Origin: Oscillochloris sp.
GTDB taxonomy: Bacteria > Chloroflexota > Chloroflexia > Chloroflexales > Chloroflexaceae
Direction of reading: 5' to 3'
Length of the DNA: 64,000 nt
Assembly (NCBI GenBank): GCA_012032775.1
Contig: JAAUQO010000003.1
Location: 1-64,000, forward strand
Both the position numbers and the translations under genes were made by a program. Below are positions 9,792 through 63,866 of the stretch, piece after piece (within the stretch, counting starts at the first letter, position 1; every line of letters begins with the position of its first letter). Under the pieces are notes generated by a model that saw only the letters and a program-made list of their open reading frames with translations, did no database searches and was not told the DNA's origin.

Positions 9792-9831
9792 GGATACAGG
9801 ATCTGTATCCTGTATCCTGTATCCTGTATCC
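9792..9831 (+). repeat. TGTATCC tandem repeat (four copies) plus one inverted copy
   Basis: TGTATCC occurs four times head to tail at 9804-9831, preceded by its reverse complement GGATACA at 9792-9798. The last copy ends one base before ATG 9833. It fills nearly the whole gap between the sigma factor stop and the next gene. A related GGATACA arm occurs in the terminator at 28930. Confidence 0.8.
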
Positions 9832-9832
9832 T

Positions 9833-57490: not shown

Positions 57491-60400
57491 TCAAGCCGGA
57501 GATTCGGTGTTGGGCGCGGGGCGAAGCGAGATATGATGCGGAATGGGTGCAGCGGCGGCATCCTCGGCATCGATCATTTCCTGCACCTCGTAGCGTTTCT
57601 TGAGCAGCGTTAGCGCTTCGCCAAAATGCACGCGAATATCGCTCACCATGGCGCGGATTTGCTCGGCCGAGGCGCCGGCGACGCGAGCCTCCAAGGCACC
57701 GCATGCTTCACTCAAGCACTCCGCCCCTACCTGGCTGCTCCCGCCGCGTAACATATGGGCGATGTGGCTAACGGCATCGCGATCGAGCCGATCGCTTGCC
57801 GCTTCCAGTTCATCTAATTGCTGGGGGAAGACAGCGGCAAACAGGCCGATCAGGCGGCGCAGTTGTACATGGCCGCTGGCGCCGGCATGTTGCGCCAGGG
57901 TATCGAGGTGCGCCCAGTTGATCGTTGCGGTCTGCGGCGCGACATTCAGCACGCTGCGCAGTTGATCGATGCGGATCGGTTTACTGAGGTAATCGTCGAG
58001 GCCGGCTTCGAGGTAGCGATCACGATCACCGGCGATCGCCGAAGCTGTCAGGGCGATAATATGCGGTTGCACAATCTGATCGCCGCGGGCGCGTATCGCA
58101 CGGGTTGTTTCCACGCCGCTTATCCCCGGCAGTTGAATGTCCATCAGGATGGCATCGTAGGTTTTCTGCTCCAGGGCGGCAAGGGCTGCCTCGCCGCTCG
58201 CCACAATGTCGGCCGGGCATGCGAGTTGTTCAAGCATGCTGCGGATCACCATCTGGTTGATCGGATTGTCTTCAACCACCAGCAGGTTGCGCGGGCTGCG
58301 GAAACGCGCCGCCGGAGCGCTGGTACGGATCGGCGCCTGACCGACCGTAATCGGCAGGTGCAAACTGAAGGTCGAGCCGAAGCCGGGTGTACTAACCACC
58401 GCCAATCGGCCGCCCATCAATGTTGCAAGTTGGCGACTGATACTCAAACCCAAGCCTGTGCCGCCCTGGCGCTGACGGGCCTGGCCTTCATCCTGTACAA
58501 TGGTGCGAAAATCGCCTCAAGCTGATCACTGGCGATGCCGATCCCGCTATCACTGACCAGAATGCTCATCTCGCCGGTATCAGCCTGATAGCGAGCTTCG
58601 ATCGCCACATAGCCGCCGGGCGTAAACTTGATCGCATTCGCCAACAGATTCACCAGAATCTGCCGCAGACGCATGGCATCGCCGAGCACATAGTGCGGTA
58701 ACGCCGGTGCGATCGTGATCCGCAGATCCAGCCCCTTCTCCTCGGCTTTCTGGCGTATCAACAGCGCCGATGATTCAATCGCGCCGCGGATATCGAACGG
58801 TTTGCGATCGATATCCAGATGCCCGGCCTCGATACGGGCCAGATCCAGGATATCGTTCACCAGGCCCAACAATGTTTCACCGCCGATCATAATTGTCTCA
58901 AGGGCGGCCTGAGTTTCAGCAGGTAACGAGGATTCGCGCAGTAATTCCGCCATCCCAATCACCGCGTTGAGCGGCGTGCGGATCTCGTGACTCATATGGG
59001 CTAAAAAGGCTGATTTGGCGCGATCGGCGGCAGCGGCCACAGTGGCGGCATGCCGCAGTTGTTCGGCAACGCGTTCGCGCTCCGTTACATCGCGAATCAC
59101 AACCAGCACCTCGGTTGCGTTGATCGGTGCTAATCGGGCTTCGTAGATCGCCTGATCGGCCGGACTACCGGCATGCAATTCGCATTGCTGAACGGCGTTG
59201 GAGCGGCAGGCTGCGGTTGCTGCCTGGCGCAAAATTTGAACCGAAGTATCTGCGATCAGGTGATCGATGCTCAGGATCTCGTGTCGTTCCGCCTCGGCTA
59301 CGAGCCGGCTGTCGGGCGTCAGATGCAGATCGCTGAGCCGGCCATCGGCGTGGAGGGTGAAAAGTGGATCGGGCATTGCGTCGCGCACAGCTCGCAAATG
59401 CGACTCACGTTGTTGTAAGGCTTCCAGTGTTTCCAGGCGGCGGACAAACGACGCGATCATCTCGGCGGCGGTGTTCAAAAACTGCACCAGCGGCGAATCC
59501 CATTCGCATGGCTCGCGGCGTTCGCTGACGCCGATATGCCCCCAGAGCCGTTCACCAAGGAAGATCGGCACCGCAAGCCACGACAGGATCATGTTCCGGT
59601 CGAACATCGCCTGAAACTGTGGATAGTCGCGGTAGCGTCCGGCTGTCGGCCCGCCGAAGGCCCGCCGCGCATGGAGTGCGGCGATCAATTCCGGCGGCGC
59701 TTCGCCCCAGGTTACCGGAACCAGCAGCGGTTCCGGATCGTGGGGCGCCACTGTTGCCGCCAGACAACTCATCTGCGCATTGGCTTCAAGCGAGCTGTAC
59801 TGATAGACCACCACCCGGCTTACGTCCAGGGCGCTGCGCAATTCGGCGATAGCGTCCGTCACATTCGCCGCCAGATCTTCGGCGGCGGTGCTGCTGGCCA
59901 GCAACACCTGTGAACAACGGGCCAGCGCTTCGGCATAGCGCAATTGGCGCGCCAGATTGGCTTCATTGGCCTTGCGCCGGCTGATGTCGCGGGCCAGACC
60001 CACCAACCCGATCAGCTTGCTGTTGTCGTCGTACACCGGCGTGCGGCTGCTGTCGAACCAATATTGTTGCCCATCGGGGCCGCTAATCAGGCGCTCGGCA
60101 TAATAGTTCTGCCCATACTCGAATACATGTTTGTCGCCGGCGGTAATAAAATCGGCCAGGTTGGCCGGATAAAGTTCGGTCGCCGTACGCCCGATCATGG
60201 CATCGCTGCTGAGGCCATGAAATTGCGCCAACGCTTCGCTTACCAGCAGGTAGCGCCCGGCGCAATCTTTTAGCCAGAACTGTTCGGGAATCGTGCGCAA
60301 AATCAATTTAATCTGGCGTTCCAGGATTTGCAGCCGTTCCTCATCGGCCCGGCGGGCGCTGATATCCTGGTACAGGCTGATCATCCCCACAAAGTTACCG

Positions 60401-61101
60401 TTCGGCATATAGACCGGCGCCAGGGCAATATCGCTCCAAAATGATCTGCCGTCGCCACCTTGCAGACAAAGCACCGCCTGGGTTGCACGGCGTTCATGCA
60501 GCGCCGCCTGTAAGCGCTTCACCGCCGTCGGATCGCTGTCGGGGCCAAAAAGCATACGAAAATCGTATCCGATCAGTGCTTCAGGTGGGTAGCCGCTGAT
60601 CGCGCCGAAGGCCGGGTTTGCATAGCGTACGGTGAATTGTGCATCGTCCGGGCTGGAAAACGTCATCCCGATCGGCATCGTCATCACGGCCGCCAGCATC
60701 GCCTGTTTCTCGCTCTGGGCACGCTCCAACTCGGCTTCGCCGGCTGCCACGCGCTGCCGCAATTGGTTGCGCTGTTGCCAGAGTAGCCCGGCCAGGCCGA
60801 GACTCAAAAGGTACATCGCGATCCACTCGAACCACGCCGGTTCGGCCACGCCCAGGCTCAAGAGTCCATAAAACAACCCTGCTGCGATCGCGATCCCGAT
60901 GTTCGCCCCCAGCGAGCAATACAGCGCTCCCAGCAGCACAGCCGCCACCGGGATCAAGGGCATGCCGAAAGCCGTGCCGGAAAGCAGTACTGCCGCCGCA
61001 GTCAATGCAACCCAGGGCGCAAAGCGCACAAAGATACGGCGTAAACCGTTGTGGCGTGATTCGATCGGTGGTTGTGGAGAGGCTCCGGTTAAACTGCTCA
61101 T
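57491..61101 (-). CDS. Hybrid sensor histidine kinase with Cys-less LOV-like PAS, receiver and Hpt; frameshifted
   Basis: Joined across one missing base, about 1203 residues. Order: four membrane helices (about 28-108); a LOV-like PAS (about 140-250); PAS (about 260-380); GAF (385-560); a third PAS; HisKA ([16 protein letters not shown]); HATPase (LLANAIKFTPGG, SDSGIGIA); receiver (LLVVEDNPINQMV, DAILMDIQLPGISG, SKPI); and Hpt (HIAHMLRGGSSQVGA). The first frame ends in an artificial APLYRMKARP tail. Adding one T in the TT at 58500 restores APFVQDEGQARQRQGGTGLGLSI. In the LOV-like domain GRNCRFL is GYDFRML, so the flavin-adduct cysteine is Phe at about 181. It is a paralogue of the kinase at 47707. 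Confidence 0.87.
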
Positions 61102-61611: not shown

Positions 61612-62827
61612 CTATCGGGTGTGCTGGGATGAACCAATAGTTGCGCGTTGAATCCATCGGATCAGGGCGACCATCCCAACACCCGCATACAGAATCAGAA
61701 TGAACTGGAGTGGCCAGCGAAACCGTCCTAATCCAAAAAAAGGGAGGTAACTGCACAGATTATAGGCAAACAACATCCAGAGGATAAGTAATCGCGGTTG
61801 GTGGCGGGTCATCAGCGATCTACTCCCGACACCGGCGGCTCCCAATACCATCCAGTAATAGCTGTTGGTTGTCCAAGAAATGATCCGCTCAAACGGAAGC
61901 ACCGGTGACGCGGTCGTGCTCGCAAAAATCCAGGTCTGCCATTCTTCCCAGCGCATCAAATACCAGAGTTTCGCCGGCACTAATTGAAGGGCGCGCATTG
62001 GATGCTCCCGGATCCAGGCCATGGCTGCCTCGCGGGCTAGGGCATCATTCTGCGCATCTAAGTAGGCATGCGGGGGATAGACATAAAACCCGTCGGCGCG
62101 GGGGTTATTCCCAATCCACAAATTCAGTCCGCTGTTGCGGGCAATCGGCACGAACTCACCGACCGCGAGACTCGTCGCAAGCACCCACGGTGTAATCAGC
62201 AGGATCGCCAGCCCTTGGCTCAGGATCAATGGCCCGAAGCGCATGGCCCGAAGCGCATGGCCCGAAGCGCGCCTGGGCGGGAGCAAGTGCGTGGTGCATA
62301 ATCCAGAGGAGGCACGGCAAGAGCAGCCAAAAGGGTCGCATCAGGCTGATCAATGCGGTTAACACACTGATTTGAACCACATGCGCCACCCTCCACCGTG
62401 GCTGGATCGCAACGATCACACTCCAGATGAGCAAAAATTGCAGCCAGACCTCATACATCAACAGAGTATTCACGAGAATATAGGAGGGCATCCCCGCGAT
62501 AAGCCACATACTCGCCCAGGCAATGTGGGGATCAAATAATCGATACGCGATCCACCCGATCAGCCCGATGGTGAGGCATGAGATGAGCGTATTAAACACG
62601 AGACCAACGACGACTTGACTGCCAAAGACGGTATATAGGACACTGAGCGTGAACGGCCATCCCGGTGGCCATAACAAATCACGGTAGGTTCCTGATTGAA
62701 CCAAAGTGACGGCGATCTGATGATAATGGAGTTCATCGACAAAAGGTTGGTGCGGATGCACCAAGAACCAGCCGATGCGCAGCAGCGCGCCGACCAGAAT
62801 GGGCCATCCATAGACAAGGGGGCGCAT
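61612..62827 (-). pseudogene. GT-C-like polytopic membrane protein, frameshifted by a 14-bp triplication
   Basis: The first frame (start ATG 62827, or TTG 62875) has membrane helices and the loop FVDELHYHQIAVTL followed by DLLWPPGWPFTLSVLY, the pattern of GT-C glycosyltransferases of the ArnT/PMT kind, where the acidic DE lies in the first outside loop. It goes out of frame at three tandem copies of a 14-base unit (62229-62273). The second frame continues LILSQGLAILLITPWVLA to 61612. Removing two copies gives ARFGPLILSQGLA and a continuous protein of 395 residues from ATG 62827 (411 from TTG 62875). The function is inferred from the fold pattern only. Confidence 0.6.
62230..62271. repeat. 14-bp tandem repeat, three copies
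   Basis: ATGGCCCGAAGCGC is repeated three times without interruption. Fourteen is not a multiple of three, so each change in copy number shifts the reading frame of the membrane protein gene. One or four copies give an open frame; the three seen here close it. Confidence 0.9.
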
Positions 62828-63090: not shown

Positions 63091-63843
63091 CTACGATTCC
63101 ATCAATTGCGGCAAGAACAACCGATTCGGAGCCTGGCGAACCTGTACCTGGGTGTTGACGGTAAAGCGATTGTTGTCGGCGCGCAGATCGACCTGATTAT
63201 CACCAAGGCTCACATCCCAGGTGTACTGGAAGGCTTCGGTAAAGCCGGGATTGAGCTGAGCGCGGATCAGAAAGCCCTGTGGCACACCGGCATTGAGCGT
63301 CAAGATCGTACAGGTAAGCTGCGGCAGATCACGGGTATTGCAGTTCGGATTGTTGCTGCTCAGAAACTTGATCGCGGGCGGCAATGTGGTCGTCAACACC
63401 ACCTGGCGGGCCGTCGCATTGGCTATGTTCCGCAGTTCGACGTTATAGGTGAGAAACCCGGCCGGCTCCACCGGAAATGGCTCGGCGAAGATGTTGTAGA
63501 TCTCAACATCGGTATTATCGCCATTGGTAACGAGCACATAGAAACTGCCCTGCACCTGCTGATCGCCTGCGCCGGCCGTACAATCGACGCGGGTTGCGCC
63601 CGGCTCAAAGACCGCACCGCTCTCGGGCATGCAGGCAACAAAGGTATCGGCCGGGGTGACCCCAATATTGTAGTCGTAATTGACACTGGTGGGGCCAACT
63701 GATTGCACAACCACGTTCTCATCGCTGAACGAGAGCGTGATTGGTTCCTGCGCGACGGCGCGCTGGTTCAGGGCTGAGAGCAGTACAAGCAGCAGGACGG
63801 TAACGCTACTGAAACGGATAACCGACATCCATCGCGTGTCCAT
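63091..63843 (-). CDS. Secreted protein with HYR/DUF11-like domains
   Basis: 250 residues from MDTRWMSVIRFSS, with AGGAG seven bases upstream. A signal peptide (hydrophobic 9-26, cleavage after AVA) precedes a domain with TRVDCTAGAGDQQVQGSFYVLV, like HYR modules, and a DUF11-type strand set (FLTYNVELRNIANATARQVVL, TLPPAIKFLSSNN). The chain ends NRLFLPQLMES, close to the ending of the remnant at 14629. Surface adhesion or cell-wall association is plausible, not shown. Its short leader carries an 8-bp hairpin. Confidence 0.62.
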   Translation of the reverse strand: MDTRWMSVIRFSSVTVLLLVLLSALNQRAVAQEPITLSFSDENVVVQSVGPTSVNYDYNIGVTPADTFVACMPESGAVFEPGATRVDCTAGAGDQQVQGSFYVLVTNGDNTDVEIYNIFAEPFPVEPAGFLTYNVELRNIANATARQVVLTTTLPPAIKFLSSNNPNCNTRDLPQLTCTILTLNAGVPQGFLIRAQLNPGFTEAFQYTWDVSLGDNQVDLRADNNRFTVNTQVQVRQAPNRLFLPQLMES

Positions 63844-63866
63844 GGGGTTCTCCTGAGACGGCAAGG

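Follow-up and report, generated by a model that had tools for sequence, protein, structure and literature searches.

The window analyzed here, i.e., the whole 64,000-nucleotide stretch at the start of the Oscillochloris sp. contig, contains on its minus strand a gene of roughly 400 codons, coding for a predicted GT-C-like membrane protein, whose reading frame is divided in two by a short tandem array lying inside it. On one side this gene is adjoined by a gene for a DUF11 protein (63091–63864) and on the other by one for a hybrid histidine kinase. The features on which the analysis draws are as follows:

62271–62827, minus strand: N-terminal half of the GT-C-like gene, opening at an ATG at 62827 (MRPLVYGW...) and carrying the FVDE loop motif
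62229–62270, minus strand: 14-bp array of three perfect copies (coding strand GCGCTTCGGGCCAT), 28 bases more than one copy would give, frame broken
62242–62244, minus strand: ATG at a copy–copy junction, in frame with the C-terminal half (MRFGPLILSQ...), no clear Shine–Dalgarno sequence upstream
62156–62228, minus strand: out-of-frame tail obtained by translating the N-half frame past the array, ending in ...IDPEPRAGDPADYTVGACDESRGR and a stop
61612–62228, minus strand: C-terminal half of the same gene (LILSQGLAILL... NLWIGNN ... to the stop), 39–42% identical to open reading frames (ORFs) of relatives
57491–61101, minus strand: hybrid histidine kinase (PAS, GAF, HisKA, HATPase, receiver, Hpt) present as two ORFs, with a break near 58495

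The array and the reading frames of the split gene

A preliminary description of this DNA had reported a triplicated 14-bp unit at this position. We confirmed that the forward-strand word ATGGCCCGAAGCGC is present three times, perfectly and head-to-tail, at 62229–62270; the end of the array had previously been placed at 62275, five bases too far. With a TRF score of 84 it outranks every other tandem array in the 64-kb window, its period-14 run of 28 successive matches is far beyond chance, and the word is absent elsewhere from the assembly (6.27 Mb, 374 contigs), in which its only three sites are those of the array. Secondary structure was considered as a cause of slippage and rejected, as the array strand folds worse than its shuffles (z = +1.70). 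No RNA elements were found in a search around the GT-C-like gene, and no tRNAs in the 64-kb window.

Since 28 added bases do not make up whole codons, translation shifts out of frame at the array and runs for 24 further codons to a stop at 62156; with this premature stop, no full-length enzyme is expected to be made. Upon computing the frame for zero to seven copies, we determined that the two halves join only at one, four or seven copies, and not at zero, two, three, five or six, in agreement with the earlier proposal that a continuous protein would be restored by a single copy and also by four. Apart from the break caused by the array, neither half contains a stop.

The ATG that the triplication itself provides at 62244 could be taken to open the C-terminal half, so that two separate proteins would be made and would assemble into a split enzyme. 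Such a start would lie in a loop, just ahead of a transmembrane helix (helices from the homologue model described below), but it is not preceded by a clear ribosome-binding site, the homologues are single chains, and the N-terminal half would keep its out-of-frame tail; we consider this arrangement very improbable.

Continuous orthologues and the GT-C fold

The N-terminal half is 45% identical to uninterrupted ORFs in three genomes of the same family (G009 C7, G014 C86 and G025 C98), and the C-terminal half, when searched separately, matches these same three ORFs at 39–42% identity. None of the three contains an internal stop, and the claim that the array splits what is a single gene is therefore upheld. 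In G002, a stop occurs in the match to the C-terminal half only at its very end, and in L016, a contig labelled Caldilineaceae, the ORF is unbroken across the junction up to the contig end. Thus, the orthologues in all five relatives are continuous at the junction and lack the array. The spacing between the RPxW and WIGN motifs is 56, 58, 58, 68 and 58 residues in G009, G014, G025, G002 and L016, respectively, the longest being that of G002; the window gene would have 59 residues at one copy and 73 at four. Since one copy yields a spacing within the 56–68 residues of the relatives, the comparison of sequences shows one copy to be the ancestral length.

As neither half matched a Pfam or NCBIfam model, the GT-C assignment, which had been made as a guess, was tested by fold instead. 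The predicted structure of a homologue, L019 (mean pLDDT 74, pTM 0.82), finds its best fold matches in AglB, oligosaccharyltransferase (OST) subunits, ArnT, PglB, ALG3 and Pmt, all of which are GT-C enzymes. The fold is well supported by this model, and for the window gene it is predicted by homology from L019; at this level the guess holds. Furthermore, the acidic motif of the first extracytoplasmic loop is present in the window gene (FVDELHYH) as it is in relatives (VWDEVDYH, IYDEMDYH, VSDEIAYH). While the predicted homologue fold and this motif are thus shared with GT-C enzymes of the PMT_2, ArnT and oligosaccharyltransferase type, no curated family model scored above its cut-off for the window gene or its relatives, the best being PMT_2 on a relative (E = 0.018), and a search of the PDB by sequence returned no relevant match.

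Frameshifts and tandem repeats across the assembly

In 1.09 Mb of this assembly, taken as separate stretches, a coding-frame HMM identified 85–88 candidate frameshifts (78–81, i.e., about 80, per Mb), as against 12–20 per Mb in the closed relatives G029 and G033, 26 in draft G014, and 116, from a small sample, in draft G009, all of these counts being of candidates rather than confirmed events. A second, independent test gave a concordant result: control proteins aligned to this assembly revealed four split places in 40 kb, and the reverse comparison none in 44 kb. The kinase gene adjoining the GT-C-like gene is itself split, its HATPase_c domain being divided between the two ORFs, and here one T appears to have been lost from a short T run near 58495. 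These observations lend weight to the possibility, which we nevertheless regard as rather unlikely, that the contig wrongly holds three copies where the gene of the cell has one.

Several points count against such an error. Four breaks tested against homologues all look, when read by eye against the homologue, like one-base losses in runs of G or C; these and the break in the kinase gene have the appearance of one-base losses in short runs, and a perfect triplication covering 42 bases is another kind of event. A typical read exceeds the 42 bases of the array, and assemblers more often collapse than expand arrays of this kind. Moreover, a non-triplet tandem repeat was found near only four of the 88 candidate frameshifts, the 14-bp array included, which is not above the level at random sites: the other three are 4–5 bp doublets only, and random positions have such repeats at least as often (7%). 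Beyond these three doublets, no similar frame-changing array was found in any other gene among the 88 candidates (1.1-Mb sample). Most frameshifts of the assembly are most probably consensus errors; a real mutational process, or a true burden of broken genes, may also lie behind them. Examples in this assembly (G000), where the overall density is about 80–100 per Mb, are L098:10249, L153:493, L111:7607 and L111:8064. In an assembly this rich in frameshifts any single one deserves less trust, that of the 14-bp array included.

This genome also contains many perfect period-7 arrays of at least three copies: 29 were counted in 1.1 Mb, and 0.4 Mb from the two closed relatives contained none. Their units differ (CTGTATC, GATGCCT, GAGAACC, CTCAGCC), the doubled CTGTATC alone giving 41 matches spread over many contigs, and they resemble the heptamer repeats of cyanobacteria. 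One array, at 9803–9832 of the window, is flanked by the genes for a sigma factor and an acyl-CoA dehydrogenase, and others lie at L140:1782–1835, L146:4187–4217 and L155:11225–11252. Several unrelated tandem arrays with periods of 9, 11 and 15 are found together in a contig-end region (L122:10756–12289). Our literature search for heptanucleotide repeats in Chloroflexus found none.

Work linking heptamer arrays to polymerase slippage (Mrazek et al. 2007) is described in PMC4679880. With the long simple sequence repeats treated there this genome shares its richness in perfect 7-bp arrays; it differs from what is described there in that its heptamers are mostly intergenic, often at contig ends, and in that the 14-mer bears no sequence relationship to them. 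A genome rich in heptamer arrays makes slippage a plausible origin of the 14-bp array, but the 14-mer does not consist of one heptamer repeated twice, and only its length (14 = 2 × 7) ties it to them.

Slippage, loss of the enzyme and its possible return

The perfect copies, the unit length not divisible by three and the otherwise intact gene would all be expected if frequent slippage switched the enzyme on at one, four or seven copies and off at two, three, five or six, thereby varying a surface glycan. The loop position may tolerate extra residues, as G002 has 68 there, and the GT-C fold of the homologue model and the abundance of heptamer arrays fit this proposal too. In simple sequence repeat (SSR) contingency loci such as those of Neisseria, Haemophilus and Campylobacter (PMC11868660, PMC6321876), a gene, often that of a glycosyltransferase, likewise contains a perfect tandem array whose unit length is no multiple of three, and the window gene shares with SSR contingency genes an intragenic array whose unit shifts the frame. 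However, in contrast to those loci, we have here one short array of only three copies with a long unit, and none in the orthologues; nor does the genome sample contain a group of such genes, as none of the other candidate frameshifts in its 1.1 Mb is accompanied by a comparable array.

The surroundings of the gene bear on the same question. Although the orthologue directly follows a family-1 glycosyltransferase gene in G014 and directly precedes a family-2 glycosyltransferase gene in G025, the window gene lies outside any glycan cluster; flanked by the DUF11 protein and the kinase, it has no neighbour that indicates a role in surface glycans. The preliminary description had also called for a comparison with related strains; among the relatives compared here, all from outside the genus, the five orthologues lacked the array and no variant copy number was seen. 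With a short array, absent from orthologues, in a gene outside a glycan cluster and in a frameshift-rich assembly, the on/off switching suggested earlier is not borne out, and we consider it improbable. As matters stand, we do not class the gene among contingency loci, whose defining feature is a variable copy number: neither an array in the orthologues nor similar arrays in other genes, both of them supportive features, turned up in the sequences examined. A literature search joining phase variation and tandem repeats with Chloroflexota found no report.

The alternative that the preliminary description had itself allowed, a fixed mutation, fits better. In our best reading, which we hold to be probable, if only just, the GT-C-like gene was knocked out by a recent duplication through slippage and could still revert; assembly error and true phase variation rank behind it. 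Within the part of the gene that encodes a loop, a 14-bp unit would have gone from one copy to three, most likely by replication slippage; the 28 added bases would have cost the frame, leading to a stop 24 codons on and to the loss of the full-length enzyme. With the gene otherwise free of visible lesions, we infer that the event was recent. The loss of two copies, or the gain of one, could in principle reverse it, but nothing points to a useful or selected rate of reversion.

Slippage and loss of function are what we infer from the array with its frame arithmetic, the match of both halves to one uninterrupted ORF in relatives, the spacing that fits one copy, the GT-C fold of the homologue and the richness of the genome in heptamers. 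Against this knock-out stand the frameshift-rich assembly, a 14-mer that is not a doubled heptamer, and an array known from one assembly only. Frameshift indels and "scars" in Mycobacterium tuberculosis (PMC8339072) similarly silence a gene in a way that a later indel could undo; there, this was shown across thousands of isolates, whereas here a single assembly is at hand.

If the array does not vary, the GT-C-like gene would be one more broken gene and a caution against mining this assembly, unless its reads are at hand, for frameshift-based regulation. Still less probable than switching in itself is a live phase-variable GT-C gene in Chloroflexota that depends on 14-bp slippage and on replication favouring units of seven and their multiples. 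Nonetheless, if the array does vary among cells, it would represent repeat-driven phase variation in a phylum without an example in the literature searched, and would point to slippage of the heptamer type acting inside genes.
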